Assembly: GCA_003220435.1 (NCBI GenBank)
Contig: QHSL01000066.1
Location: 62,001 to 126,000, forward strand
Length of the DNA stretch: 64,000 bases
Source of the DNA: Candidatus Rokuibacteriota bacterium
GTDB lineage: Bacteria > Methylomirabilota > Methylomirabilia > Rokubacteriales > CSP1-6
Direction of reading: 5' to 3'
This document shows positions 3,330-54,665 of the stretch, one piece after another. Every line of letters starts with the position of its first letter. The first letter of the stretch is position 1. A model generated the notes under the pieces. The model was not told the DNA's origin, did no database searches, and worked only from the letters and a program-made list of their open reading frames with translations. The position numbers and the translations under genes are program-made.

Positions 3330-4175
3330 CTAGTCGCCGACCGCGGCGAGGACGGCGGGCAGCGCGGCCAGCACTTCCTGCAGGCACCGCCGAACGCGCG
3401 CGATGTTCGCGTCGGCCTTCAGAGGGATCTCGCCCCGCGACACCTGAGCGATGAACTCGTCACGGGTGGTCGTCATCAGCAGCGACGCGTTGACCTCGAG
3501 CTGGAGCGCGTGGACGCGGCGGGTCCGGGGCTGGCCGAACGTGGCCACGATGTTGCCGCCGGAGTAGCCGCTGACGTTCTGGTGCACCTCGAAGCCGTGG
3601 CGCGTGAAGATCTCGGCCACCGTCGCCGCCAGCCGGGGGGCGCACGTCGTATCGTGGCGGGTGCCAATGATGACCTGATGGTCCTTCATCCGCCGCGGGC
3701 TCCCGGTGTGGCCGTCGAGCAGCAGCACGTGGCCGTGGGCGCGATAGAGCTCGACGAGCAGCCGCTCCAGCGTCGCGTAGTAGGGATCGTAGAGCGCCCG
3801 TAAGCGCTCCTCGAGATCGCTGAGTGCCAGCGGCTGCCGGAAGATGGGCACGTCGCGCATGGTGTGGGTGCGCACCACCCCGCGCCGCGAGCGCACCTCG
3901 CCGTCCTGATGCTCGAAGTCGTCGCGGCGGCGGTTGACGTCGACGAATATGCGCGAGAACGGTGTGGTGAGGACGGTCGCGCCGTGCTCGTGCAGGTCGC
4001 TGTAGAGATCGCCCACGAAGGTGTCGGCGAAGCCGTAGGCGAAGGTCTCGAACCACGGCTCGCTATAGTCCTCGCGGGTGACGTGAGGGAGCGGCTGCGT
4101 GCCGTAGTGGGGCACGCTCACCAGCACCGGTGTGCACTTCGCCGGCGCGGGATGTCGGATGATCGGGAAGTCCAT
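3330..4175 (-). CDS. N-formylglutamate amidohydrolase family protein
   Basis: A 281-residue member of the FGase (HutG/N-formylglutamate amidohydrolase) family, recognised by the opening VLVSVPHYGTQPLP, the FVDVNRRRDD segment, the metal-site LLLDGHTGSPRRM motif and the LQLEVNASLLM strand near the C-terminus. The classical reaction hydrolyses N-formyl-L-glutamate to formate and glutamate in histidine degradation. No other hut gene is nearby, and the family also contains enzymes on other N-acyl amino acids, so the substrate is open. The gene stands alone between an HhH gene and an SDR gene on the same strand, with gaps of 136 and 63 bp. Confidence 0.8.
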   Translation of the reverse strand: MDFPIIRHPAPAKCTPVLVSVPHYGTQPLPHVTREDYSEPWFETFAYGFADTFVGDLYSDLHEHGATVLTTPFSRIFVDVNRRRDDFEHQDGEVRSRRGVVRTHTMRDVPIFRQPLALSDLEERLRALYDPYYATLERLLVELYRAHGHVLLLDGHTGSPRRMKDHQVIIGTRHDTTCAPRLAATVAEIFTRHGFEVHQNVSGYSGGNIVATFGQPRTRRVHALQLEVNASLLMTTTRDEFIAQVSRGEIPLKADANIARVRRCLQEVLAALPAVLAAVGD

Positions 4176-4238
4176 GATTCGCTGCGCCTCGGTCGGCGGG
4201 GCTCGAGGCCCCGCGACGACGTGCGGCGCACACTCTAT

Positions 4239-5024
4239 TTAGATCACGACCGACTTGCTTCCGTCGACCACCAGCGCCGCGCCGTTCACGTAGGTGGCCC
4301 GTTCGGAGACCAGGAAGCAGACCGCGTCGCCGATGTCGTCGATCGCGCCCAGGCGGCCCGACGGGATCGTCTTGACGAGCTGATCCAGGACGTCGGCGGG
4401 TGTGGCGCCCTGAGCGGCTGCGGTCGCCTTCAGGAGCTGATCGCCCCTGGCGGTCTGGATGCGCCCAGGCGCCAGGCTGTTGACCCGGATGTTCAGCGGT
4501 CCGAGCTCGATCGACAGCTCCTTGCTGAACATCCGGAGCGCGGCATTGCAGGCGCTGCCCGGCGTGTGCAGGGGGACGGCCTGCTGCGTCGTGCCCGTGA
4601 TGTTGACGATCGCACCGCCGCCGCGGCGCCGCATGTGGGGGATGGCGGCCTTCGCACACCGGATGTAGCCCAGGAGCTTGCCGTTGATCGCATCGACGAA
4701 GGCCTCGTCCGGGAGATCGACGAACGGCCCGAAGGTCGAGGCGCCGGCGTTGTTGACCAGGATATCGACCCCGCCCAGCCGCTGGGCCGCCTGGTCGACG
4801 AAGCCCCGGCAGCCGTCGAGGGTTCGTAGATCGGCGGCGATCGGCACGATCTGCATGCCGGTGGCCCGGGCGATCTCGGCCGCCGTCTCCTTCAGCTTCG
4901 ACTCGGTCCGGGCGCAGATGGCGACGCGCACCCCCTCGTCGGCCAGCTTGCGCGCGATCGCGCTGCCGATGCCCTCGCTGGCGCCCGTCACCAGCGCGGT
5001 CTTGCCCTTGAGTCCCAACTCCAT
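4239..5024 (-). CDS. SDR family protein lacking the usual catalytic Tyr-Lys pair
   Basis: A 261-residue Rossmann-fold SDR. The dinucleotide motif GASEGIG (near residue 14), the NNAG motif and the C-terminal GAALVVDGSKS are intact. Where YxxxK is expected the sequence reads GSACNAAL, so Tyr is Gly and Lys is Asn; this 'NAAL' subgroup is known among divergent SDRs. It may still bind NAD(P) but the usual proton-relay chemistry is doubtful. ATG 5024 has GAGGAGG a short way upstream; a longer reading to 5087 would overlap the divergent neighbour's control region. It is transcribed away from the 2-hydroxyacid dehydrogenase gene. Confidence 0.8.
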   Translation of the reverse strand: MELGLKGKTALVTGASEGIGSAIARKLADEGVRVAICARTESKLKETAAEIARATGMQIVPIAADLRTLDGCRGFVDQAAQRLGGVDILVNNAGASTFGPFVDLPDEAFVDAINGKLLGYIRCAKAAIPHMRRRGGGAIVNITGTTQQAVPLHTPGSACNAALRMFSKELSIELGPLNIRVNSLAPGRIQTARGDQLLKATAAAQGATPADVLDQLVKTIPSGRLGAIDDIGDAVCFLVSERATYVNGAALVVDGSKSVVI

Positions 5025-5085: not shown

Positions 5086-6156
5086 ATGACCGACCAGCCC
5101 TTCCACGTCTACGTCATCCAGGGGCGCGGTCTGCGCGACTTCGGCGACTGCCAGGCCGCGCTCGACCACGTGCCCGCACGCATGCTCTCGCTGCCGTACA
5201 TCGCCGCCGAGGACGAGCTGATCGCGCGCGCGCGCGACGCCGACGCCCTCGTCGTCTCGTTCTCGCCGGTGACCCGCGGCGTGATGAGCGCGATCGAGGG
5301 GCTCAAGACCGTGGTGCGCACCGGCGTCGGATACGACGTCATCGACGTGCCCGCCGCCACCGAGCTCGGCGTGATCGTGGTGAACATCCCCGACCTCTGG
5401 GTGCGCGAGGTCGCCAACCACGCGCTCGCCCTGCTCCTGGCGTGGAACCGCAAGATCCTCACCATGGACCGGCAGGTGCGCCTGGGCGTGTGGAGCGGGG
5501 CGGTGCCCGGCGCCCACACCGGGGCGCTCCACGGCGAGACCGTCGGCATCGTCGGCCTGGGCAACATCGGGAGCGCGTTCGCGCGTCGCGTGGCGGCGTT
5601 CGAGACCAGGGTGATCGCGTGCGATCCGTACGTGGACGACTCGCGCTTCGCCGCGCTCGGTGTCGAGCGCGTCTCCCTCGAGACTCTGGCCGAGCGCTCC
5701 GACTACGTCTCGGTGCACACGCTGCTGAACGCGGAGACGCATCATTTGATCGGCGAGTCGTTCTTCCGCCGGATGAAACCGACGGCGATCCTCATCAACA
5801 CTTCGCGAGGCCCGGTGGTCGACGAGCAGGCGCTGACTCGGGCGCTCGAGGCCAAGCGCCTCGCGGGCGCCGCGCTCGATGTGTGGGAGGAGGAGCCGGT
5901 CGCCGGCGACAACCCGCTGCTGAAGATGGACAACGTCATCGCCACGTCGCACGCCGCCTACTTCTCCTCGGCCGCGGTCGCCCAGGTGCCGCGGCGATGT
6001 GGCGAGGAGATCGCGCGCGTCCTCACCGGGCAGCGCCCCCTCAACGTGGTGAATCCCGAAGTCTACGCGCCCGGCGCGGCGCGCCGCGCCGCAGGGGTGG
6101 TGCGCGCCGCAGGCCGTCGCGGGGCAGGGGCCCCGCCGGCCGAGGCGAGCCTATGA
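5086..6156 (+). CDS. D-isomer-specific 2-hydroxyacid dehydrogenase (CtBP-like)
   Basis: A 356-residue NAD-dependent dehydrogenase. The NAD-binding motif GLGNIG is at 157-162, the substrate Arg in NTSRGPVVDE near 240, the catalytic Glu in DVWEEEPV near 269 and the catalytic His in TSHAAYFS near 288, so the active site is complete. It should interconvert a 2-oxo acid and a D-2-hydroxy acid. The last 25 or so residues (RRAAGVVRAAGRRG and on) are not family sequence: they are translated from the dispersed palindromic repeat at 6104-6147, which supplied the stop at 6154-6156. The real domain ends near NPEVYAPG. Divergent from the SDR gene. Confidence 0.85.
   Translation: MTDQPFHVYVIQGRGLRDFGDCQAALDHVPARMLSLPYIAAEDELIARARDADALVVSFSPVTRGVMSAIEGLKTVVRTGVGYDVIDVPAATELGVIVVNIPDLWVREVANHALALLLAWNRKILTMDRQVRLGVWSGAVPGAHTGALHGETVGIVGLGNIGSAFARRVAAFETRVIACDPYVDDSRFAALGVERVSLETLAERSDYVSVHTLLNAETHHLIGESFFRRMKPTAILINTSRGPVVDEQALTRALEAKRLAGAALDVWEEEPVAGDNPLLKMDNVIATSHAAYFSSAAVAQVPRRCGEEIARVLTGQRPLNVVNPEVYAPGAARRAAGVVRAAGRRGAGAPPAEASL
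6104..6147 (-). repeat. palindromic repeat family 1, copy A1 (inside 3' end of dehydrogenase gene)
   Basis: In minus orientation this matches the consensus: an outer arm GCGCC..GGCGC, a middle arm GGCCG..CGGCC and an inner stem GCGGGGC..GCCCCGC (here with a T/A variant) around a 4-nt loop. A second copy follows after a 64-bp period. It is translated as the C-terminal tail of the dehydrogenase. Confidence 0.85.
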
Positions 6157-6167
6157 AGGGGTGGTGC

Positions 6168-6211
6168 GCGCCGCAGGCCGTCGCGGGGCGGGGGCCCCGC
6201 CGGCCGAGGCG
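6168..6211 (-). repeat. palindromic repeat family 1, copy A2
   Basis: Second tandem copy of the family-1 repeat, offset 64 bp from A1 and nearly identical over the whole unit, including the GAGCCTAT flank. It lies between the dehydrogenase stop and the ribosome site of the nitroreductase-like gene. Confidence 0.85.
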
Positions 6212-6237
6212 AGCCTATAAAAAGGGGAGGTAGCGAC

Positions 6238-6675
6238 ATGTCGACCGTCCGACCCGGACCCGGAGGCCGGCCGCCAGGCTGGCAGCAGGCGCACGCGAAG
6301 CGATATCTCGAGACCGGCGGCCGCGAGGGACACATCTGGGAGGGCGTCACGACGTTGCTGCTGACGACGACCGGCCGGCGCTCCGGCCAGCCGCGGACCA
6401 CGCCGCTGATCTACGGCCGCGCCGGCGATCGTTACCTGGTCGTCGCCTCGCGCGGCGGTGCGCCGGCGCACCCGGACTGGTACCAGAACCTCGTCGCGCA
6501 GCCGGAGGTGTACGTGCAGGTGATGGCCGACCGCTTCAAGGCGCGCGCCCGCACCGCGTCGTCGGCGGAGAAGCCGGCGCTGTGGAAGACGATGACCGCG
6601 ATCTGGCCGCCGTACGAGGAGTATCAGGCGCGGACGACGCGCGAGATCCCGGTGGTCATTCTGGAGCGGGTCTAG
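6238..6675 (+). CDS. deazaflavin (F420)-dependent nitroreductase family protein
   Basis: A 145-residue split-barrel protein of the Ddn/deazaflavin-dependent nitroreductase family: residues 39-55 (TLLLTTTGRRSGQPRTTPL) are the family hallmark, followed by YLVVASRGG and HPDWYQNLVAQPEV. Relatives use reduced F420 to reduce quinones or nitro compounds. Together with the LLM-type genes in the window this suggests the organism makes F420. ATG 6238 has GGGGAGG 8 nt upstream. The 3' end overlaps the convergent next gene by 4 bp. Confidence 0.85.
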   Translation: MSTVRPGPGGRPPGWQQAHAKRYLETGGREGHIWEGVTTLLLTTTGRRSGQPRTTPLIYGRAGDRYLVVASRGGAPAHPDWYQNLVAQPEVYVQVMADRFKARARTASSAEKPALWKTMTAIWPPYEEYQARTTREIPVVILERV

Positions 6676-8276: not shown

Positions 8277-8319
8277 GCGCGTGCTCGCCGGGAGACCGGC
8301 CGCACCGTACTTAATCGTC

Positions 8320-8432
8320 GCGCCTCGGCCGGCGGGGTCTCTGTGCATCGCTCGCCTCGGGCCTGGGGGCCCCAGCTCCCGGACGGCCCTGCGGCTCGCA
8401 CTGCGGCCCCGCGACGGCCTGCGGCGCGCACC
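8320..8432 (+). repeat. palindromic repeat family 1, copy B (decayed mosaic)
   Basis: Three partial units in a row: GCGCCTCGGCCGGCGGGG at 8320, a fuller but diverged unit from about 8351 to 8400, and the right half (GGCCCCGCGACGGCCTGCGG) ending near 8432. Without knowing the repeat one could read this as coding upstream of the aldolase. Confidence 0.7.
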
Positions 8433-8450
8433 ACAACGCGAGGTGTGACA

Positions 8451-11706: not shown

Positions 11707-12465
11707 TCATTGCGCGAGCGCTCCGCCGTCGATGACCAACTCGCTCCCTGTCATGTAGGCCGAGTCGTCCGACGCCAGGTAGAGGACCGCGGTGACGATC
11801 TCGGCGACCGTGCCCATCCGTCCCAGCGGCACGCGCTCGAGCCGCTTCTTCAGAACCTCCGGATCGGGCATCGCGCTGTGGAGCATGTCGGTGTCGACCG
11901 GGCCGGGGTGCACGGAGTTGCAGCGGATGCGGTCCTTGGCGTGCTGGCTCGCCGTCACCTTCGTGAAGATCCGGATCGCACCCTTGCTGGCGGCATAGGC
12001 CGGCTCCTGGTGGAGCGACTGGCCGATCCCCGCCACCGACGAGATGTTCACGATCGAGCCGCCGCCGGCGCGACGCATCGCCGGGATGGCGTGCTTCGTG
12101 CCGAGGAACACCCCCCGGGCGTTGACGGCCATCACCCGATCCCACTCCTCGACCGTGCGCTCCTCGATCGCGACGCGCGGGATGACGATCGCGGCGTTGT
12201 TGATCAGGATGTCGAGCTTGCCGTAGCGCCCGGTCACGGTCTGGATCGCGCTCTTCCAATCTGCTTCGCTGGTGACGTCGAGGTGCACGTAGACGCCCTC
12301 ACCGCCGTGGGCGCGGATGGTGGCCTCCACCTTCTGCCCCTCGGCGTCCCGAACGTCGCCGAAGACCACCTTCGCGCCTTCGCGTGCGAACGTCTCGGCT
12401 TCGGCGGCGCCCTGTCCGCGCGCGCCGCCGCTGATCAGCGCGACTTTTCCGTCCAGCTTTCCCAT
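11707..12465 (-). CDS. SDR family NAD(P)-dependent oxidoreductase
   Basis: A 252-residue classical SDR. Cofactor motif SGGARGQG (residues 12-19), NNAA, catalytic Ser in NISSVAG, and an intact YAASK catalytic Tyr-Lys, with the C-terminal GSELVIDGG. It should oxidise or reduce a hydroxyl/keto group. ATG 12465 is preferred to GTG 12474 because AGGAG stands 8 nt before the ATG but touches the GTG. It leads a two-gene unit with the SnoaL-like gene. Confidence 0.88.
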   Translation of the reverse strand: MGKLDGKVALISGGARGQGAAEAETFAREGAKVVFGDVRDAEGQKVEATIRAHGGEGVYVHLDVTSEADWKSAIQTVTGRYGKLDILINNAAIVIPRVAIEERTVEEWDRVMAVNARGVFLGTKHAIPAMRRAGGGSIVNISSVAGIGQSLHQEPAYAASKGAIRIFTKVTASQHAKDRIRCNSVHPGPVDTDMLHSAMPDPEVLKKRLERVPLGRMGTVAEIVTAVLYLASDDSAYMTGSELVIDGGALAQ

Positions 12466-12490
12466 GTCGATCACTCCTGTTTGTTCATAG

Positions 12491-12540
12491 GCTCGCCTCG
12501 GACGGCGGGTCCCCAGCCCCGCGACGTCCTGCGGCTCGCA
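12491..12540 (+). repeat. palindromic repeat family 1, copy C
   Basis: A single, slightly diverged unit filling the gap between the deacetylase stop and the SDR ribosome site. The inner stem is GCGGG(T)CCCC..AGCCCCGC and the outer arms carry two substitutions. It lies between two minus-strand genes. Confidence 0.75.
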
Positions 12541-13464
12541 CTACCGCGCGGGCGCCGGGTGCGTGGCGGCCCAGTGCTTCGCGATGTCCAGACGCCGCGT
12601 GAACCACACATTCTTGTGGTGGCTCATGTAGTCGAGCGCGCGCTCCAGCCCGGCGGCCCGCGACGGGTGCCCGATGAGCCGCAGGTGCAGCCCGAGCGAC
12701 ATCATCTTGGGCTGCGTCCGGCCCTCACGGTACAGCACGTCGAAGCCGTCCTTCACGAACGTGAAGTAGTCGTCGGCGGTGAAGAAGCCGCCGCGACCGA
12801 ATTTCGAGTCGTTGGTGGTGAGGCTGTAGGGCACCACCAGATGCGGGCGCTCGTTCACGCGCACCCAGTACGGGAGCTCGTCGTTGTACGCGTCGGAGTC
12901 GTACAGGAAGCCGCCCTCTTCGACCAGGAGGCGCCGCGTATTCACGCTGGGCCCGGAGCGGCAGTACCAGCCGAGCGGCCGCTCGCCGACCGTCTTCGTC
13001 AGGGACTCGATGGCCATCCGGATGTGCGAGCGCTCCTGGTCCTCCGTGAGCTCCCAGTGCTTGATCCATCGCCAGCCGTGCGAGCAGACGTCGAAGCCGG
13101 CCTCGCGGATGGCGGTGGCAACGGCCGGGTTGCGCTCGAGGGCCAGCGCGCAGCCGAACACGGTCAGCGGCAATCCGCGCTCCTTGAAGATCCGCAAGAC
13201 GCGCCAGAAGCCCACCCGGCTGCCGAACTCGAACAACCCCTCGGCCGCCAGGTCGCGGCCCGTGACGCCGGAGTCGGCGACTCCGGCTTCCGTCAGCGTG
13301 GCCTCCGAGAACCCGTCGTCCTGCGCGTTGTACTCCGAGCCTTCTTCGTAGTTCACGACGAAGTTCACGGCGATCCGCGCCTCGCCGGGCCAGTGAGCGT
13401 GGGGAGGGCTGCCGCCGTAACCGATGAGATCGCGCGGGGTGGGCGTGGGCATGGGCCCGATCAT
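12541..13464 (-). CDS. polysaccharide deacetylase / PuuE-type allantoinase family protein
   Basis: A 307-residue NodB-homology TIM-like barrel of the PuuE branch. Visible: RDLIGYGGSPPHAHWPGEARIAVNF start, NYEEGSEY, the SHGWRWIKHWELTEDQE metal/active segment and LGWYCRSGPS. PuuE-type enzymes act on allantoin or similar cyclic amides rather than polysaccharides, and the protein has no signal peptide, so cytoplasmic amide hydrolysis is more likely than cell-wall work. ATG 13464 and ATG 13452 are both possible starts. It lies 9 bp after the oppF-like stop, in the same direction, perhaps the last gene of the importer operon. Confidence 0.8.
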   Translation of the reverse strand: MIGPMPTPTPRDLIGYGGSPPHAHWPGEARIAVNFVVNYEEGSEYNAQDDGFSEATLTEAGVADSGVTGRDLAAEGLFEFGSRVGFWRVLRIFKERGLPLTVFGCALALERNPAVATAIREAGFDVCSHGWRWIKHWELTEDQERSHIRMAIESLTKTVGERPLGWYCRSGPSVNTRRLLVEEGGFLYDSDAYNDELPYWVRVNERPHLVVPYSLTTNDSKFGRGGFFTADDYFTFVKDGFDVLYREGRTQPKMMSLGLHLRLIGHPSRAAGLERALDYMSHHKNVWFTRRLDIAKHWAATHPAPAR

Positions 13465-24002: not shown

Positions 24003-24774
24003 CTACACCGCCGTATACCCGCCGTCGATGAGCAGGTCGCTGCCGGTCATGAACGCGGAGGCGTCGCCGGCCAGGTAGACGGCGGCGCGCGCGATCTCCT
24101 CGGGCTGGCCGAGCCGGCCGAGCAGGTGCTTGGGCCCCATCATCCGGCGCGCCTCGTCCATGTCCTTCCAGCGGTGGAGCATGCGCCGCGTCTCGATCGC
24201 CCCGGGCGAGATCGTGTTGGCGCGAATCCCCTGCGCCGCGTGGTCGGCCGCGAGCACCTTGGCGAGCTGGATCAGCGCCCCCTTGGTGGCGCAGTAGGCC
24301 GCTCGCCCGGGCGAGGCGACGCGGCCGAGCTGCGAGGCGATGAGGATCACGCTGCCGCCGCCGCGCGCGATCATCGCCGGGACAGCGGCCTTGACCATCA
24401 GGAACGCGCCGGTGAGGTTGATCCGGATCACGCGATCCCAGGCCGCCTCGTCCATTTCCAGGACCGTGGCGGTCCGGTCACTGTCGGCCGCCCCGTAAAG
24501 CAGGACGTCGAGCCCGCCGAACCGCGTGACGGTCGCCGCGACAGCAGCGCGACAGCTCTCGCCGTCGGTGACGTCCAGACGGACGGGCAGCGCCTGCCCG
24601 CCGCCCTTCTCGATGTCGGCCCGCAGTGGTCTTGGCGCCGCCCTCCTCGACGTCGGCGCAAGCGACCCGGGCGCCCGCCGCCGCGAAGGCGAGCGCGGTC
24701 GCGCGCCCGATGCCGTTGGCGGCGCCGACCACGACGGCGGTCTTCTTGTCGAGCGTGAACGTCGGATCGATCAT
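24003..24774 (-). pseudogene. SDR family oxidoreductase gene with a single-base frameshift
   Basis: The reading from ATG 24774 gives a proper SDR start (DKKTAVVVGAANGIGRA) for about 50 codons, then turns to nonsense at 24622-24628. From there another frame continues the family sequence without loss: ADIEKGG, RLDVTD, LDVLLYGAA, then ALIQLAKVL, and DLLIDGGYTAV to the stop at 24003. The total length (772 nt) is one base more than a multiple of three. In the restored protein the catalytic region reads AAYCATKGAL, so it would be an active enzyme. A one-base sequencing or assembly insertion is as likely as true decay. Confidence 0.8.
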
Positions 24775-24790
24775 CGCGACCTCTCCCTAT

Positions 24791-24840
24791 CGCCGCACCT
24801 CGGCCGGCGGGGCCCCAGCCCCGCGAGGGCCTTCGGCGCG
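24791..24840 (+). repeat. palindromic repeat family 1, copy D
   Basis: One unit with intact inner stem GCGGGGC-CCCA-GCCCCGC and lightly diverged outer arms, filling the gap between the two damaged SDR genes. Confidence 0.8.
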
Positions 24841-24842
24841 TC

Positions 24843-25500
24843 CTACCCGTCGGGCCGTTGGAAGTGAGGAAGCCCGGTGTGGGCGGTGAGGCCCCCGTCC
24901 ACGACGAAGGCGGCGCCGGTGATGAACGAGGCCTCGGCGGACGCCAGGAACAGCACGGTGCTCGCGACCTCGTCGGCCTTGCCGACGCGGCCGATCGGAT
25001 GTTCCGCGGCGTGGGCGTGCCGTCGCGGCGTTGTAGGACGAGAGCCCGTAGTCGCCGCCCATGCCCGAGATCGACGCGGTGTTGACGACGACCCCCTTGC
25101 GCTGGGCACGCATGATCGGCAGGCAGTGCTTCAGGCCGAGGAACACGCTGGTGAGGGTGACGGCGATCACGCGGTTCCAGCTCTGGAGGGAGATCTCGTC
25201 GAGCGGCGCCGGCTCCGCCAGGCCGGCGTTGTTGACCATGACGTCGACCCGGCCGAACGTGTCGAGGGCCCGCTGCAGCGTGCGCTGCACCGCCTCCGGC
25301 TCGGACGCGTCCATCTTGATGGCGGCGGCACGCCCGCCGCTCGTCGCGATCGCCGACGCGACGGCCTCCGCGCGCGTGCCGCTCAGATCGGCGACCACGA
25401 CCGCCGCGCCCTCGCCGGCGAGGCGCCGCGCGGTGGCGGCGCCGATTCCAGAGCCGCCCGCGGTAACGATCGCGACCTGGCCCGCGAATCGGCCGGACAT
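24843..25500 (-). pseudogene. SDR family oxidoreductase gene with an internal deletion and frameshift
   Basis: From ATG 25500 the sequence is a normal SDR ([27 protein letters not shown]) up to SSYNAA, about residue 158. The catalytic Lys of YxxxK and the next 40-45 residues are missing; near 25011-25025 the reading jumps out of frame into the family C-terminus ([20 protein letters not shown], then [12 protein letters not shown]) which ends at 24843. The product cannot be a working SDR. A collapsed assembly is possible but the loss is inside unique sequence. Confidence 0.8.
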
Positions 25501-26183: not shown

Positions 26184-27689
26184 ATGCCGACCGGCAAGCG
26201 GTTCATCATCGTGTTCGTGGTAGACGGGCTCCGGCCCGACGCCATTACGGCGGAGAACACGCCAACGCTCTTTCGCTTGAAGACCGAGGGCGTGGAGTTC
26301 ACGAACAGTCACGCCGTGTTCCCGACGGTGACCCGGGTCAACGCCGCCGCGCTCGGGACCGGAACGCAGCCCGGCACCAACGGCATCCTGGGCAACCAGA
26401 TGTACGTCTCGGCGGTCGATCCGCGGCGCGCCTTCGACACCGGCGACTACCGCAACCTGCTCGCCCTCGATCGCGCCACCGGCGGCCGCCTCGTGCTCGT
26501 GGGCACGCTCGCCGAGCGCCTGGCGGCGCAGGGGCTGCGGCTCGCGGCGGTCAGCTCGGGCTCGACGGGCAGCGCGCTGCTGACCAATCCCCGGGCGGTC
26601 GCCGGCGTCGGCGTGCTGATCAACGGGTACTTCGATCCCGGCCGCGTGGTGGCCTGGCCCGCGCACGTGAGCGAGGCGGTGCTCGCCAAGTTCGGGCCGG
26701 CGCCGGCGAAGACGGGCGGTGACCGCTACGACGCGGCGGTCACGTGGACCCAGCGCGTCCTGCGCGAGTACGTCGTTCCCGAGCTCCAACCGACCGTCGT
26801 GATCAACTGGCTCACCGAGCCCGATCACAGTCAGCATCACCTGGGCGTGGGCGCGCCGTCCACGCGCGAGGCGCTCCGGAACGACGACCGTGAGATCGAG
26901 CGCGTGCTGGCGACCCTCGACGACCTCGGCCTGACGGGATCGACCGACGTGTTCGTCGTGTCCGACCACGGCTTCACCACCAACACGGCCGGCGTCGACG
27001 TCGCTCGCGCGCTGATCGACGACGGCCTCAAGGCCGCGCCCGACTCCCGCGACGTGGTGCTCGCCAGCAGCGGGCAGGCGGTCGCGTTGCACGTCGAGGG
27101 GCACGACGCCGCGCGGATCGCCCGTATCGCTCGGTTCGTCCAGTCGCGCGACTGGGGCGGGGTGCTCTTCGCGGCGGGCCGCGCGCCCGAGGAGCCGCAC
27201 GGCGTCGTCGATGGCACCTTCTCGCTCGAGCTCATTCACATCGCCAACGGCGAGCGCGGCCCCGATCTGCTGGTGACGTTTCCGTGGAGCTCGACGCCGA
27301 ATGGCTTCGGCGTGCGGGGCAGCGATCTGGCCAACGTCAGCCGGGGCGGCGCGCCGCTCGCGAGCGACCACGGCAGCATGAGCCCGTGGAACGTGCGGAA
27401 CACGTTCCTGGCGTGGGGCGTGGACTTCAAGAAGCGCGCGGTGATCGAGGTGCCGGCGGGCAACGTGGACGTGACCCCGACGATCCTCGCCCTGCTGGGG
27501 ATCGTGGAGGGCGACGGCCTCGACGGCCGCGTCCTCGCCGAAGCGCTCGCGGGCGGGGGAGACGAAGCACAGGTCGCCGTCGACACGCGTGTCCACACCG
27601 TGGAGGCCCACGCGTACGCCGCGGCCCTCCAGGTGTCGGTCGTCCACGGGCATCGCTATGTGGACAAGAGCTGGCGAGTAGCGAGATAG
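26184..27689 (+). CDS. alkaline phosphatase family / type I phosphodiesterase-nucleotide pyrophosphatase
   Basis: 501 residues of the alkaline-phosphatase superfamily, NPP branch. The first metal Asp is in VVDGLRPDAI, the nucleophile Thr in FPTVTRVNAA, other ligands in TEPDHSQHHLG, VVSDHGFTT and ASDHGSMSP. It should hydrolyse a phosphodiester, pyrophosphate or phosphonate ester. No signal peptide is evident, unusual for this often exported family. The stop is followed directly by tandem repeats and then an LLM oxidoreductase gene. Confidence 0.85.
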   Translation: MPTGKRFIIVFVVDGLRPDAITAENTPTLFRLKTEGVEFTNSHAVFPTVTRVNAAALGTGTQPGTNGILGNQMYVSAVDPRRAFDTGDYRNLLALDRATGGRLVLVGTLAERLAAQGLRLAAVSSGSTGSALLTNPRAVAGVGVLINGYFDPGRVVAWPAHVSEAVLAKFGPAPAKTGGDRYDAAVTWTQRVLREYVVPELQPTVVINWLTEPDHSQHHLGVGAPSTREALRNDDREIERVLATLDDLGLTGSTDVFVVSDHGFTTNTAGVDVARALIDDGLKAAPDSRDVVLASSGQAVALHVEGHDAARIARIARFVQSRDWGGVLFAAGRAPEEPHGVVDGTFSLELIHIANGERGPDLLVTFPWSSTPNGFGVRGSDLANVSRGGAPLASDHGSMSPWNVRNTFLAWGVDFKKRAVIEVPAGNVDVTPTILALLGIVEGDGLDGRVLAEALAGGGDEAQVAVDTRVHTVEAHAYAAALQVSVVHGHRYVDKSWRVAR

Positions 27690-27767
27690 AGGCGCGCCAC
27701 GGCTTCGCCGGGGCGTGCCGAACGTGTGGGGGTAGGGGGCCATGTCGGGGCCCCCGTAGTCGCGAGA
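27687..27767 (+). repeat. hairpin repeat family 2, first tandem unit
   Basis: An 81-bp unit starting at GAGGCGCGCCACGG, containing GCCGGGGCGTGCCGAACG, and ending with the hairpin GGGGGCC-ATGTCGG-GGCCCCC. It begins within the last codons of the phosphodiesterase gene, and a second unit follows directly. Confidence 0.85.
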
Positions 27768-27848
27768 CAGAGGCGCGCCACGGCTTCGCCGGGGCGTGCC
27801 GAACGTGTGGGGGTATGGGGGCCATGTCGGGGCCCCCATGAACATAGG
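27768..27848 (+). repeat. hairpin repeat family 2, second tandem unit
   Basis: The second copy, nearly identical to the first with an 81-bp offset, ends just before the GGAGG ribosome site of the LLM gene. The hairpin arm is GGGGGCC/GGCCCCC again. Confidence 0.85.
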
Positions 27849-33133: not shown

Positions 33134-34132
33134 TTAGAGCTTCAGCAGCGACTCGAGATTGCGCCAGAGGATCTTCTCTTTCTCGTCCTGGGTCACCGTC
33201 TTCATGGACTGCAGCCAGGTGACGGGCGAGGGGTGCCAGGGCACGAAGGGCCAATCGCTGCCGAGCACCACGCGGTCGGCGCCGACCTCGTCGAGCAAGA
33301 AACGGAGCGCCTTCTCACTGCCGACCACGGTGTCGTAGTAGAGGCGGCGCTGATAGGTGCTGGGCGCCTGCTTGATGACGCGATTGGCCTCGGGCGTGCC
33401 CTGCCAGCCGCGGTCGAGGCGGCCCATCGCGAAGCACGCCGGGCCGCCGCCGTGGGCGATGCACACCTTGAGGTCGGGGCAGGCGTCGAAGACGCCGCCG
33501 AAGATCATGACCGAGAGGACGATCGCGTCCTCGACAATGACGCCCAGGCTGTTGAAGAGCCCGTAGCGGGTCGTGCGCTGCATCATGAAGTTGTGCTGCG
33601 GCTGCGGGTGGAAGAACAGCACCGCGCCCATGGCCTCCGCGGCCTTGAAGAACGGCCGGAACTTCGGCTCGTCCCAGTTCTCGCCGTTCACCACGGTGTC
33701 GAGCTCGACGCCCTTGAGGCCGAGCACGTTCACCGCGCGCTCCAGCTCGTCGATCGACGCCTTGACGTCCTGCAGGGGGAGCGTGGCGAGGCCCGCGAAG
33801 CGCGTCGGCCACTGGCGGGCCATCCCGGCGATCTCGTCGTTGACCTCGCGGGCCAGCGCCAGTCCCTGCGGTGACTCGAGGTGGTAGCCGAAGAACGGCG
33901 TGTGGATCGAGACCACCTGGACGTCTACGCCCTGCGTGTCCATGTCCTTGATCCGCTCCTCCGGGGTGAAGCGCACCTTGGGCGAGTTGAACTGCGTGCG
34001 CTTTCCGTTTCCCACGACGGTGCCGAGCCCGTCGCCGGGCTCGTGACGGAAGCCGTACCACTCCCGGCGCGCCTCTGCGGCCTGCCACAGCGAGCGCGGC
34101 ACCAGATGCGCGTGGATGTCGATGGTCTTCAT
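33134..34132 (-). CDS. amidohydrolase family 2 protein (ACMSD-like), paralogue 1
   Basis: 332 residues with the full amidohydrolase metal set: HAH in IDIHAHLVPR, a His in LFFHPQPQHN, a His in CIAHGGGPA and Asp in VLGSDWPFV. It should hydrolyse or decarboxylate a cyclic or aromatic acid. It is clearly a paralogue of the 332-residue protein at 53503-54501: same length, the same segments such as FTPEERxxDMD and SIHTPxFGYHL, and the same C-terminal end. Located 27 bp upstream of the thioredoxin-like gene. Confidence 0.87.
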   Translation of the reverse strand: MKTIDIHAHLVPRSLWQAAEARREWYGFRHEPGDGLGTVVGNGKRTQFNSPKVRFTPEERIKDMDTQGVDVQVVSIHTPFFGYHLESPQGLALAREVNDEIAGMARQWPTRFAGLATLPLQDVKASIDELERAVNVLGLKGVELDTVVNGENWDEPKFRPFFKAAEAMGAVLFFHPQPQHNFMMQRTTRYGLFNSLGVIVEDAIVLSVMIFGGVFDACPDLKVCIAHGGGPACFAMGRLDRGWQGTPEANRVIKQAPSTYQRRLYYDTVVGSEKALRFLLDEVGADRVVLGSDWPFVPWHPSPVTWLQSMKTVTQDEKEKILWRNLESLLKL

Positions 34133-46539: not shown

Positions 46540-46887
46540 TCACATCGGCCAGATCGGCCGCACGTCGATGTAGCCGCCCTCGCGGAGCGGGATCTTCTTC
46601 GCCCACTCGACGGCTTCCTCCTTGGTGGCGCACTCGATCAGGTAGAAGCCGCCCAGGGCCTCCTTGGTCTCGGCGAACGGGCCGTCCGTGACCTGCCGCT
46701 GGCCGGCCTTGATCCGGATGCGGCTGGCTTCGCTGTCGGGCCGCAGCCGCTCGCCGTGGACCATCTTTCCCGACGCCTGGAGCTCCTGGGCGAACCGCAT
46801 GTGGCCCTGCAGGACCGCGGCCATTTCGGCTTGCGGCGCCTGGGCTTGAGCCTTCTCGTCACCGGAGATGAGCAGCATGTAGCGCAT
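46540..46887 (-). CDS. YciI/DGPF family protein
   Basis: 115 residues with the ferredoxin-like YCII fold. Diagnostic motifs are MRYMLLISGDE, the catalytic-candidate DGPFAETKEALGGFYLIE, and WAKKIPLREGGYIDVRPI. The DGPF subgroup is encoded next to ECF42 sigma factors in many bacteria, as here, and is probably its target or partner; the reaction is not known. AGGAGGATCC lies just before ATG 46887. Confidence 0.88.
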   Translation of the reverse strand: MRYMLLISGDEKAQAQAPQAEMAAVLQGHMRFAQELQASGKMVHGERLRPDSEASRIRIKAGQRQVTDGPFAETKEALGGFYLIECATKEEAVEWAKKIPLREGGYIDVRPIWPM

Positions 46888-46906
46888 GGGATCCTCCTAT
46901 TGATAG

Positions 46907-46953
46907 CGGCGTCTCGGCCGACGGGGCCCCAGCCCCGCGACGGCCTGCGGCGC
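46907..46953 (+). repeat. palindromic repeat family 1, copy E1
   Basis: Full unit with inner stem GGGGC-CCCA-GCCCC and outer GCGTC/GGCGC arms. The first of a pair in the gap between the divergent YciI and MBL-fold genes. Confidence 0.85.
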
Positions 46954-46969
46954 CTGCGGTGGTTATAGC

Positions 46970-47014
46970 GGCGCCTCAGCCGGCGGGGCCCCAGCCCCGC
47001 GACGGCCTGCGGCG
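46970..47014 (+). repeat. palindromic repeat family 1, copy E2
   Basis: Closest to the consensus: GCGCCTCAGCCG-GCGGGGC-CCCA-GCCCCGC-GA-CGGCC-TGC-GGCGC. It lies 61 bp after E1 in the same direction. Confidence 0.88.
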
Positions 47015-47103
47015 CCTGCTTCCATCTCAACCAGTACGACGACGATGACCCGCCGAAATCGACAGGCTCCGTCTTCTCCGCCTCGGCCGCGGGAGCGTCC
47101 TGA

Positions 47104-50387: not shown

Positions 50388-51439
50388 TCAGCTTCTCCAG
50401 GGCTCGACGAGGACCTTGGCGTGACGCTCCGGCGAGCCCAGCTCCTCGAACGCGCCCGCGACGCCCTCGACGCCCACCTTGCCGGTGACGAGCGGCGCCG
50501 TCGCGATCGCGCCCGCCGCGATCGCACCCAGCGTCGCGGCGAACTCATCGGCGGTGTAGCCGAGGACGAACTGGAGGCTCAGCTCCTTCACGATCCCCAG
50601 CATCGGAGAGATCGCGTCCTGCTCCATGCACACGCCGACGACTACGATGCGCGTACCGCGCGGTGCGGCGCCCATGATCTGATCGAGCACGCCCGGTACG
50701 CCCACGCACTCGAACACGACGGCGGGGCGCAGCGGCGGCCCCGGGATCCACGGCGGGAGCTTCGGCGCGCGGCTCGCGTCGCGCCAGACGGCGACCTCGC
50801 GCCAGCTCTGCCACGGCGTGGTCGCCTTCGGATCCACGACGACGTCGGCGCCGAGCGTCGCCGCCAGCTCGCGCCGGCGCGGCGAGAAATCGGCACCGAC
50901 TGCCGGCTCGGCGCTCGGCCTCGACGAACTTCTCGGCGTGCTTGAGCGCGTGCAGGTCCGAGCCGCAGATTCCGCACGCGAGCGTCTTCACCAGCACCTC
51001 GCCCGGCCCGGGCGCGGGCAGGGGTACGTCCGCGACGACGAGTCGCTGCTTCCGCATCACGCTCGCGCGCATCGCCGGCAAGCCCTCCTGAGGTGTCGTT
51101 GGAGTAGCCCACCGTCCACACGCCGTCCGGGCGGACGAGCCCCGGTCGCGAGCAGACGCGCTCGCCGCGGGGGAGATGCCGGCGCGTCTCGGGACCGTGC
51201 TCGATGATCTCGGCGCAGAACTCGTGGCCCATCACGATGTCGCGGCTCAGGTCCATCACGAACCGACTGCCGGCTCGGCGCTCGGCCTCGACGAACTTCT
51301 CGGCGTGCTTGAGCGCGTGCAGGTCCGAGCCGCAGATTCCGCACGCGAGCGTCTTCACCAGCACCTCGCCCGGCCCGGGCGCGGGCAGGGGTACGTCCGC
51401 GACGACGAGTCGCTGCTTCCGCATCACGCTCGCGCGCAT
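50388..51439 (-). pseudogene. zinc-type alcohol dehydrogenase (MDR) gene disrupted by a 199-bp internal duplication
   Basis: From ATG 51439 the first part is normal: CGICGSDLHALKHAE with the first zinc ligands, DIVMGHEFCAEIIEHG, then GVWTVGYSNDT. At 51094 the sequence jumps back to a copy of its own 5' end (50895-51093 equals 51262-51460). After the copy, ADFSPRRRELAATLGADVVVD and FECVGVPGVLDQIMGAAPRG resume the family C-terminal half to the stop at 50388. The segment that should hold the GxGxxG NAD loop (about 60 codons) is missing. Either recombination replaced it or the assembly is wrong here. Confidence 0.75.
50895..51093 (-). repeat. direct repeat of MDR 5' end, misplaced copy
   Basis: 199 bp identical, as far as I can compare, to 51262-51460, offset 367 bp. 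It includes the ribosome site, the start codon and the first zinc motif, lying in the middle of the gene. Confidence 0.85.
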
Positions 51440-51460
51440 CGCCGGCAAGCCCTCCTGAGG
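51262..51460 (-). repeat. direct repeat of MDR 5' end, true start
   Basis: Partner of the copy at 50895-51093. This one carries the functional position of the start codon, with AGGAGGG about 10 nt before ATG 51439. Confidence 0.85.
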
Positions 51461-51531: not shown

Positions 51532-52950
51532 TTACGCCGCGGCGCGCGGCACCGCGGGACGCAGGCGCGACCCGATGACGAGCGCCGCCATCGGCGCCAC
51601 CACGAAGCCGCCGAAGAGCCACGCGCCCGCGAGCGCCGCCGCCGTCCTCGAGGGGCCGCCCCCGAGCCCGGCGGCATTGGCGATGATGCCGGACAGCGCG
51701 GCGCCGAGCGAGACCGCAAAGAGCTGCGTGCTCGGGATCATCGACGCCGTGACCGCGCCCTCGTCCGGCCGCCCTGCCGACAGGACGGCCGCGGCGACGT
51801 GCGCCCAGCACGTGCCGATCCCGAGACCGACCAGCGTCAGCGCCACCGCGATCGCCGCCACCGGACCCGAGCCGATCGTGAGGAAGAGGCCGATGAATCC
51901 CGATGCGGTCAGCAGCGGGCCGAGGGTCACGGCCCACCGCACTCGCTTCGCAGCCACGGACGCGCTTGCCAGCGTGCCCGCCGTCCACGCGAGTGACTGG
52001 AGCGCGTAGAGATAGCCGGAGGCCGCCGGCGTCACGCCGTGCAGCACCTGGACCAGCAGCGGGAGGTAGATGCCGCCGGGCGTGGTCGACATGCCGAGCA
52101 GGAGGATCATCCAGAATCCCTTCCCGATGCGGTTCGCGGGGGAGAGCATACCCGTCGGGAAGAGCCGCTCCGGCGCCTTGCCGTCGAGCCGGAGCATGAC
52201 GGCCACGAAGATGATCGCCGCGGCGAAGAGCGCGACGCGCGCCGCCGCGCCGCCGGCGTTCGCGATCGAGCCGACGCAGAGGACGCTCGTGCAGACGAGC
52301 GCCAGGCGTCCGAAGGGGACGCGCGCCGATTCGGTGCCCACGCTCGCCCTCGCGGGCAGGATGCGCCACGTGAGCACGCCGACCAGCACGGCGATCGGTG
52401 CCACCGCCCAGAACGCCGTGCGCCAGAGCCCGAGCCCCGCCAGTACGCCTCCGACCGCCGGCCCGCTCAGCGCCGGAATCGCCCACGTGCAGGAGATCGC
52501 GGTGAGCATGCGTGGCCACAGAACTTCGGGAAAGACCTCGCGCACCATGCTGTGGGCGCCGGCGATCAGCATCCCGCCACCGAGGCCCTGTAGCGCGCGG
52601 CCGGCGACCAGGACGGTCATGCTCGGCGCGGTGGCGCAGACGGCCGTGCCCACTACGAACACGGCGGCGGCGAGGACGAACGCGCGGCGCATCCCCGCCC
52701 GGCCGATGGCGACCGAGCTCCCGGCGCTTCCGAGCATCGAGGCGATCGCATAGGCCGTCGAGGCCCATGCGTAGATCGCGAGACCGCCGATCTCGGCGAT
52801 GGCCGAGGGCAGGACCGTCGCGGTGATGAACGCGCTGAACGCGGGCGCCAGGATGCAAAGCACGACGATGACCGCGGACAGCGTGTACGGAGGTTCGAGC
52901 AGCGCGGTCCAGGAGCCCTCGGGTTCGGCGAGGCGCGCATGAGGGGCCAT
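51532..52950 (-). CDS. MFS transporter
   Basis: 472 residues with 12-14 membrane helices. The DHA-type loop GRAGMRRAFVLAAAVF lies between helices 2 and 3, and GRALQGLGGGMLIAGAHSMVREVFP is the family motif of drug:H+ antiporters. Probably exports a small organic compound. The first residues (MAPHARLAEP) are encoded by a family-2 hairpin repeat, and an alternative ATG at 52965 lies within it, so the true start is uncertain. The MDR gene lies downstream in the same direction. Confidence 0.85.
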   Translation of the reverse strand: MAPHARLAEPEGSWTALLEPPYTLSAVIVVLCILAPAFSAFITATVLPSAIAEIGGLAIYAWASTAYAIASMLGSAGSSVAIGRAGMRRAFVLAAAVFVVGTAVCATAPSMTVLVAGRALQGLGGGMLIAGAHSMVREVFPEVLWPRMLTAISCTWAIPALSGPAVGGVLAGLGLWRTAFWAVAPIAVLVGVLTWRILPARASVGTESARVPFGRLALVCTSVLCVGSIANAGGAAARVALFAAAIIFVAVMLRLDGKAPERLFPTGMLSPANRIGKGFWMILLLGMSTTPGGIYLPLLVQVLHGVTPAASGYLYALQSLAWTAGTLASASVAAKRVRWAVTLGPLLTASGFIGLFLTIGSGPVAAIAVALTLVGLGIGTCWAHVAAAVLSAGRPDEGAVTASMIPSTQLFAVSLGAALSGIIANAAGLGGGPSRTAAALAGAWLFGGFVVAPMAALVIGSRLRPAVPRAAA

Positions 52951-52968
52951 GTCGGGGCCCCTCATGTT
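52930..52968 (-). repeat. hairpin repeat family 2, partial copy overlapping the MFS start
   Basis: ATGAGGGGCCCCGACATGGC on the minus strand matches the hairpin part of the units at 27.7 kb (GGGGCCCCGACATGGCCCC). It provides the first codons of the transporter. Confidence 0.7.
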
Positions 52969-53502: not shown

Positions 53503-54501
53503 CTAGAGGCCCAGCAGCGCCTCCAGGTTCTGCCAGAGGATCCTGTTCTTCTCGTCCTGGGTGAGGCTCGCGAGCCCCTGCACCCAGCCGACGGGTGAGG
53601 GGCTCCAGCCGACGAACGGCCAATCGCTTCCGAGCACCACCCGGTCGGCGCCGACGTGATCGATCAAGTAACGCAGCCCCGGCTCGCTGTCGGTCACGCA
53701 GTCGTAGTAGAGACGGCGCTGGTAGGAGCTGGGAGGTTTGTGGATGTGCTCGCGCGCCTCGGTGCGGACCCGCCAGCCGTGGTCGAGGCGACCCATACCG
53801 AAGCACGCCGGTCCGCCGCCGTGGGCGATGCACACTTTGAGGGCGGGGCACGCGTCGAGGATTCCGCCGAACATGAGCGTCGCGACGATCAGCAAGTCCT
53901 CCACGATGACGCCGATGGAGTTCGGGATCCCGTAGCGACCGCGGCTGGCGAAGAGCAGGTTGTGCTGCGGCTGCGGATGGAAGAACAGGACGGCGCCCAT
54001 GCTCTCGGCGGCCTTGAACAGCGGCAAGAACCGCGGCTCGTCCCAGGTGGAGTCATTCACCACCGTGTCGAGCTCGGCGCCCTTGAGGCCGAGCACCGTC
54101 ACCGCGCGCTCGAGCTCGCCGACGGCGGCGCCGACGTTCTGCAGCGGCAACGTCGCCAGGCCCGCGAAGCGCCGAGGCCACTGGCGTGTCATGCCGGCGA
54201 TCTCGTCGTTGACGTCGCGGGCGAGCTGACGCCCCGGCGACGCGTCCAGGTGGTAGCCGAAGAGCGGCGTGTGGATCGACACGACCTGCACGTCGATGCC
54301 TTGCACGTCCATGTCCTGGAGCCGCTCTTCCGGCGTGAAGCGCAGCTTGGGCGTCTGGACGCGGCTGCGCCGGCCGCTGGTCACCGTGGTGCCCAGCCCT
54401 TCGCCGGGCTCGTACGTCGTCCCGTACCAGTCACGCCCAGCGTCGACGGCTCGCCACAGACACTGCGGCATCAGATGCGCGTGGATGTCGATGCTACGCA
54501 T
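53503..54501 (-). CDS. amidohydrolase family 2 protein (ACMSD-like), paralogue 2
   Basis: 332 residues with the same metal set as paralogue 1: IDIHAHLMPQ, LFFHPQPQHN, CIAHGGGPACF and VLGSDWPFV. The length, FTPEERLQDMDVQGIDVQVV and the C-terminus match the protein at 33134-34132 closely; the two differ mainly in surface regions such as the segment after RRLYYD. It probably acts on a related substrate. Divergent from the sugar-type ABC operon by 164 bp that contain a family-1 repeat. Confidence 0.87.
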   Translation of the reverse strand: MRSIDIHAHLMPQCLWRAVDAGRDWYGTTYEPGEGLGTTVTSGRRSRVQTPKLRFTPEERLQDMDVQGIDVQVVSIHTPLFGYHLDASPGRQLARDVNDEIAGMTRQWPRRFAGLATLPLQNVGAAVGELERAVTVLGLKGAELDTVVNDSTWDEPRFLPLFKAAESMGAVLFFHPQPQHNLLFASRGRYGIPNSIGVIVEDLLIVATLMFGGILDACPALKVCIAHGGGPACFGMGRLDHGWRVRTEAREHIHKPPSSYQRRLYYDCVTDSEPGLRYLIDHVGADRVVLGSDWPFVGWSPSPVGWVQGLASLTQDEKNRILWQNLEALLGL

Positions 54502-54596
54502 CGACCGCGTTCCCTTTTTGCCTTGACACCTTCGTGACCTCGCTGTTAGACGTGAGCCACTCGCTGCCCGGCCGCCATCATAACCGAGTTGTTGGG

Positions 54597-54643
54597 CGCG
54601 CCTCGGCTGGCGGGGCCCCGGCCCCGCGACGGCCTGCGGCGCG
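54597..54643 (+). repeat. palindromic repeat family 1, copy F
   Basis: A full unit with inner stem GCGGGGC-CCCG-GCCCCGC, ending 23 bp before the ATG of the binding-protein gene. Confidence 0.85.
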
Positions 54644-54665
54644 CGCACTGCCACAGGAGGCTCAC

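Follow-up and report, generated by a model that had tools for sequence, protein, structure and literature searches.

The spread of REPs is generally attributed to RAYTs; in the GTAG superfamily, TnpA-REP cleaves the single-stranded hairpin in a strand-specific manner. Another class of short repeats, the MIRUs of Mycobacterium tuberculosis, reportedly described by Supply et al. in 1997, is said to lie in the intercistronic gaps of operons, co-oriented, singly or in tandem, and to overlap stop and start codons, without the hairpin considered here. The unit studied in this work is likewise intercistronic, co-oriented with the operon (sense in 61 and antisense in 14 same-direction gene pairs) and single or tandem; the likeness to MIRUs is one of placement. 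For REPs of the GTAG superfamily, the family descriptions in PMC3733652 give an unpaired head at one end (GTAG, or GYAG, GYRG, GTRG), mostly kept in >90% per family, a size of 20-40 bp with stems of 5-13 bp, a high and mostly extragenic copy number, and a RAYT in the genome that is flanked by the repeats; REPtrons can be lost. The same source describes CGTC-tagged REPs, which are like our unit in being REP-like palindromes without a known dedicated transposase, and differ from it in their 8-9 bp stems, their CGTC head and their occurrence mostly in alphaproteobacteria.

Here we describe a palindromic repeat, designated family 1, from a soil-dwelling member of the Rokubacteria. The window (G000:C17:62001-126000) is a 64-kb stretch of its 5.44-Mb draft genome (147 contigs) and contains nine copies at seven sites (Table 1). 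The first-pass annotation of this DNA listed six sites; the unit was confirmed at all of them, and the divergent copy 1 is an additional, seventh one. In the stretch 6104-6211, two copies (97% identical) follow each other in tandem, 64 nt apart. Note that in several relatives the version of the gene at 5086-6156 ends before the repeat (window 6093-6156), and that both short-chain-dehydrogenase-like genes next to copy 6 (24003-25500) appear frameshifted in their translations (pseudogenes or assembly error).

Table 1. Family-1 copies in the window, numbered by position; gene coordinates refer to the window, with strand in brackets.
Copy	Position	Strand	R1 (bits)	Remarks
1	4173-4239	-	62.0	Divergent copy; occupies the gap from the stop of gene 4239-5024(-) to the start of gene 3330-4175(-)
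2	6094-6159	+		First of a head-to-tail pair; gene 5086-6156 runs into it and takes its stop codon (6154-6156) from it
3	6158-6223	+	79.1	Second of the pair; 3' end 14 nt from the ATG at 6238
4	8309-8437	-	49.2	Composite; second hairpin (about 8355-8397) inside the apical loop of the family-1 hairpin
5	12482-12547	-	71.8	Between the stop of gene 12541-13464(-) and the start of gene 11707-12465(-)
6	24784-24849	-	63.0	Flanked by two frameshifted short-chain-dehydrogenase-like genes; just ahead of the downstream gene's SD and ATG
7	46898-46963	-		Second of a head-to-tail pair; found by the covariance model; adjoins AGGAGG and ATG of gene 46540-46887(-)
8	46960-47025	-	80.7	First of the pair
9	54587-54652	-	62.3	Between divergent genes; 13 nt separate its 5' end from the start of gene 54666(+)

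The unit is an imperfect hairpin of ~60 nt with 6+5+7 bp (an 18-bp interrupted stem) behind an unpaired, GYRG-like head. Read in the sense direction, it consists of the head G-Y-R-G, TG, three stems around a TGGG loop (CGCGCC/GGCGCG, GGCCG/CGGCC and GCGGGGC/GCCCCGC, with a GCA/GA internal loop and a TC bulge between them), and a short A-rich tail CTATAA. Folding reproduced the core recognized in the first-pass annotation, i.e. a 7-bp stem with a 4-nt loop and two further paired arms, with a predicted energy of about -42 to -45 kcal/mol in all four single copies folded. Among 139 first copies, G occupies the two end positions of the head in 93% and 90%, respectively; the head, with the full GYRG in 84 of 157 copies, is looser than in most REPs. 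The stem is constrained, and its pairing is kept via compensatory changes: among 141 copies, 16 of the 23 pairs have double changes, with 67 double-change cells observed against 20.5 in shuffles. Mutual information, computed over 146 copies from the two flanks of the core, locates this coupling to the outer stem. It comprises a change of C/C to A/A, which creates a tandem mismatch of the G.A type, and the swap of a C-G pair to G-C. Head and tail do not covary in the same 146 copies, for which reason the fold's outermost predicted pairs are probably not real. The second hairpin seen in copy 4 is nested in the family-1 apical loop at the identical point in all 11 of its occurrences in the genome; the simplest reading of these 11 places is one nesting event followed by amplification and spread of the 126-nt composite. 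We also considered a transcription terminator and dropped it, as judged by eye from the missing T-run after the hairpin.

A covariance model built from 30 copies was used to scan the whole genome. It revealed at least 150 dispersed copies (all with E <= 4e-8 in 5.44 Mb), so that the search of the whole bin proposed in the first-pass annotation gave a family larger than the one reported there. The core 20-mer, allowing for up to three mismatches, matched the genome 188 times, compared to 44 matches for a reversed-pattern control; together with the copies found by the model, this shows that the repeat is not due to chance. Among 84,980 species, each represented by one genome, the exact 40-letter unit pattern matched 82 stretches, all of them from Candidatus Rokubacteria/Rokuibacteriota. 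The unit was found in 41 of 95 genomes of the phylum: in 9/9 of the genus, in 40/57 of the family (genus included), in 1/3 from the other families of the order, and in 0/35 from other orders. The family-1 repeat is confined to Rokubacteria and their order. No exact match of the 20-mer was found in viral_contigs, and viral carriage of the unit was dropped. A known RNA family was ruled out in the window, which gave no Rfam match at the gathering score. Nor did the literature searched contain a description of this repeat in Rokubacteria; within the scope of these searches, the first-pass annotation, which recognized no named family, is upheld.

The unit is mobile, and it has been gained or lost recently between species of one genus. 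Stretches of the window genome and other Rokubacteria loci form filled/empty pairs that differ by about one unit. In the comparison of the locus L061 (another species) with the window, the filled version reads ...CACGAGG, unit, AGGAGACGCGATG, and the empty one ...CACGAGG, AGGAAACACGATG; the L061 site orthologous to the composite at 8309-8437 is also empty. Further pairs with and without the unit are L194/L080, L097/L075, L214/L249, L242/L078 and L165/L072. (All pairs cited here were read at the base level; the automatically assigned class of empty sites also takes in misses of the regular expression.) Within the genus, the pair at 46.9 kb is absent in 7/7 relatives for which the locus was recovered. 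In the nearest of them, G051, the locus reads GTACTGGTTGA joined to ATGACATCCTCAAGGAGGATCCGATG. In G048, another of these seven, a unit is present at a different position of that intergenic region. Where G050 and G053 carry a unit, G048 is empty. For the gene following the pair at 6.1 kb, G051, G048 and G052 lack a preceding copy, and G055 has one in inverted orientation. In the junctions of empty/filled pairs, whose exact ends are blurred by divergence of the flanks, neither a uniform target nor a target duplication is apparent. Some sites are occupied in different species, e.g. that of copy 1, which is filled in L061 as well with one stem pair changed on both sides in a compensatory manner; such common sites could reflect function or simple inheritance. 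In one intergenic region (L073:2197 vs L221:3512 and L087:5096), the orientation of the unit is opposite between species, due to either separate insertions or an inversion.

The strongest feature of the family, absent from the first-pass annotation, is its directional placement just 5' of ribosome-binding sites. Genes were called with an in-house codon-usage script, which misses frameshifted genes. Although 89% of the window is covered by called genes, 9 of 155 copies overlap such a gene, in agreement with the earlier impression that copies always lie at gene borders. (Element calls by regular expression, some of which are false or partial, put 12 of 127 singletons inside called genes, and 7 of 118 with a stricter filter.) Of the 155 copies, 84 are located between genes both oriented like the copy itself, 16 between genes both oriented the other way, 43 in divergent and 7 in convergent contexts, and 5 at contig edges. 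A co-oriented gene lies downstream of 131 of them, its start most commonly 9-17 nt after the model end. For single intergenic copies, the 3' end falls -5 to 35 nt from a co-oriented start in 69 of 115 cases, compared to 13.2% expected from random intergenic points; the reversed placement (5' end near an oppositely oriented start) occurs in 19 of 115 against 12.9% expected. The same direction prevails in MAGs of other species, with 36 co-oriented and 9 reversed among 67 loci found by sequence alone. The earlier remark that copies occur in both orientations thus holds for the strands of the window and fails relative to the neighbouring gene, where one orientation strongly dominates.

What could cause this placement? 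The insertion itself could be aimed at regions of translation start, such as single strands exposed at transcribed gene starts. We regard this as rather unlikely. The fourfold enrichment, in one direction only and with the reversed direction at the chance level, would agree with it, and oriented insertion during transcription could still underlie the direction bias. However, copies away from gene starts lack an SD-like motif (11% vs 9% at the 3' side for the 28 strict non-start copies), and the SD was therefore rejected as an insertion target. Neither was there a strand effect relative to the local GC skew (intercept 0.0019 +/- 0.0017, with a weak skew here), from which a replication-strand bias is undetectable. 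Selection after insertion is supported by the predicted accessibility of the SD. In 54 leaders, SD openness was 0.49 for the native arrangement, 0.47 after removal of the unit and 0.42 after flipping it (p = 0.005 for native vs flipped). A difference of 0.07 is small and perhaps insufficient to explain the nearly 4:1 direction bias, and for this reason directed insertion stays a rival.

Alternatively, the unit could be a cis-acting RNA element, such as a leader or intercistronic hairpin, that is selected in the sense transcript and spread by recombination. Its strong co-orientation with the downstream gene at a near-fixed distance to the start codon, its stable fold and the conservation of some sites between species would fit this explanation. 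On the other hand, sites are gained and lost within the genus, and no regulon is evident among the neighbouring genes, which, as named by reading their sequences, belong to ordinary abundant families (ABC transporters, SDRs, LLM-type oxidoreductases, amidohydrolases and similar); a regulon reading was accordingly dropped. Furthermore, the two inner helices have as many C-to-T as G-to-A changes (23 vs 23, counted per column), so that there is no G-U bias of the sense strand there. In the whole structure, C-to-T exceeds G-to-A (78 vs 38 in A2, 49 vs 9 in A3), a lean that comes largely from one column in A2 and mainly from three columns in A3, the latter limited by how the loci were found; as the totals favour C-to-T and the inner helices are even, we did not use this asymmetry as a sign of selection on sense RNA. 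Because of the missing regulon and the even inner helices, we treat a cis-acting RNA role as a rival, and an unlikely one, rather than as the main reading. Cargo genes between inverted copies were considered as well and rejected, since only ordinary genes lie in the pairs listed.

With GTAG-tagged REPs, as presented in PMC3733652, PMC2817692 and PMC8266576, the unit has in common that it is a high-copy, extragenic, imperfect palindrome with a bulged stem and subfamilies with complementary stem changes; its unpaired head resembles their G-[TC]-[AG]-G, with the looser conservation given above. It differs from these published families in its length (1.5 to 3 times that of a REP), in its arrays and in its position. 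Close neighbours (<120 nt) are head-to-tail in 19 of 20 pairs, with one inverted, whereas head-to-tail dimers are absent or under-represented in the GTAG REPs of these accounts; and the unit lies mostly shortly before start codons, whereas the REPs described there lie downstream of ORFs at varying distance to the next gene. The designation REP/BIME-like in the first-pass annotation can therefore be kept in its first half (high copy number, extragenic location, imperfect palindrome with a GYRG-like head, empty sites, covarying stem) and not in its second, as the alternating orientation of BIMEs is not seen. By analogy, the unit would appear to act like a REP and to be placed like a MIRU, and we assign it to neither.

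A search for a RAYT, likewise proposed at the outset, was run with two profiles and gave none in the nine genomes of the genus (drafts, 87-98% complete). PF01797 (Y1/RAYT) matched 0/9 of them, and a profile made for RAYT-like proteins of Rokubacteria (A4) had no credible match, the best (E 0.05) lying outside the Y1 part. In the family, Y1 genes, some RAYT-like, are present in 11 of 57 genomes. Their presence does not follow the unit, which occurs in 6/11 Y1-positive vs 34/46 Y1-negative genomes, and the Y1-positive genomes are not the unit-rich ones. In the five Y1 gene loci retrieved (L272-L276), no R1 copy adjoins the gene. Some family members without the unit (L272, L273) have a Y1 gene of the IS200/IS605 type, which in L272 is followed by a TnpB-like ORF. 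These data bear on the possibility that the units are true GTAG-superfamily REPs whose RAYT was lost, or was missed in the draft genomes. The GYRG-like head, the bulged hairpin and the high copy number fit the GTAG/GYRG families of PMC3733652, the loss of REPtrons has a precedent there, and Y1 genes do exist in the family. Nevertheless, no RAYT was recognized in the nine genomes of the genus, the distribution of Y1 genes does not match that of the unit, and the unit is longer than REPs, repeated head-to-tail and anchored to gene starts instead of ends. We consider this origin possible, if somewhat doubtful.

It appears probable to us that the units are non-autonomous mobile REP-like palindromes specific to Rokubacteria, served by an enzyme in trans and placed mostly by selection after insertion. 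As no mobilising enzyme was identified, the transposition step is something we only infer: an enzyme that is not a recognizable Y1/RAYT transposase, or one that has since been lost, may copy the unit while it is folded into a hairpin of single-stranded DNA. The bias in place and direction would then come mostly from post-insertion selection. In the short gaps of operons, the sole safe place would be the interval from a stop codon to the SD that follows it; there, a unit in sense orientation, with its self-contained hairpin and A-rich tail, would leave the SD open, and a reversed one would cover it somewhat. Units would be retained where the hairpin leaves translation undisturbed, and any effects on the mRNA (insulation of cistrons, protection of RNA ends) would be a by-product. 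More tentatively, the hairpin may have its own non-RAYT route and be delivered, or strongly retained, in one direction 5' of ribosome-binding sites, so that one genome would hold more than 150 similar insulating hairpins ahead of its cistrons or between them.

In this genus, each genome searched holds young REP-like copies, in numbers from dozens to more than a hundred, and has no detectable RAYT. Such a genus offers a natural test of whether REP-like palindromes can move by a route other than RAYTs. Two genome sets display the directional placement at gene starts, which furthermore provides many natural pairs with and without the unit for studying how a strong hairpin upstream of the SD affects expression.

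The window also contains repeats of other kinds. A 199-nt direct repeat (50895-51093 and 51262-51460, 367 nt apart) is 100% identical, and two paralogous stretches (33135-34124 and 53504-54493) are about 80% identical at a distance of 20,369 nt. There are two further short repeat families, one at 27677-27739 and 27758-27820 and another at 27728-27755, 27810-27837 and 52935-52962; one of the two has GGGGGCCATGTCGGGGCCCCC-like palindromes.
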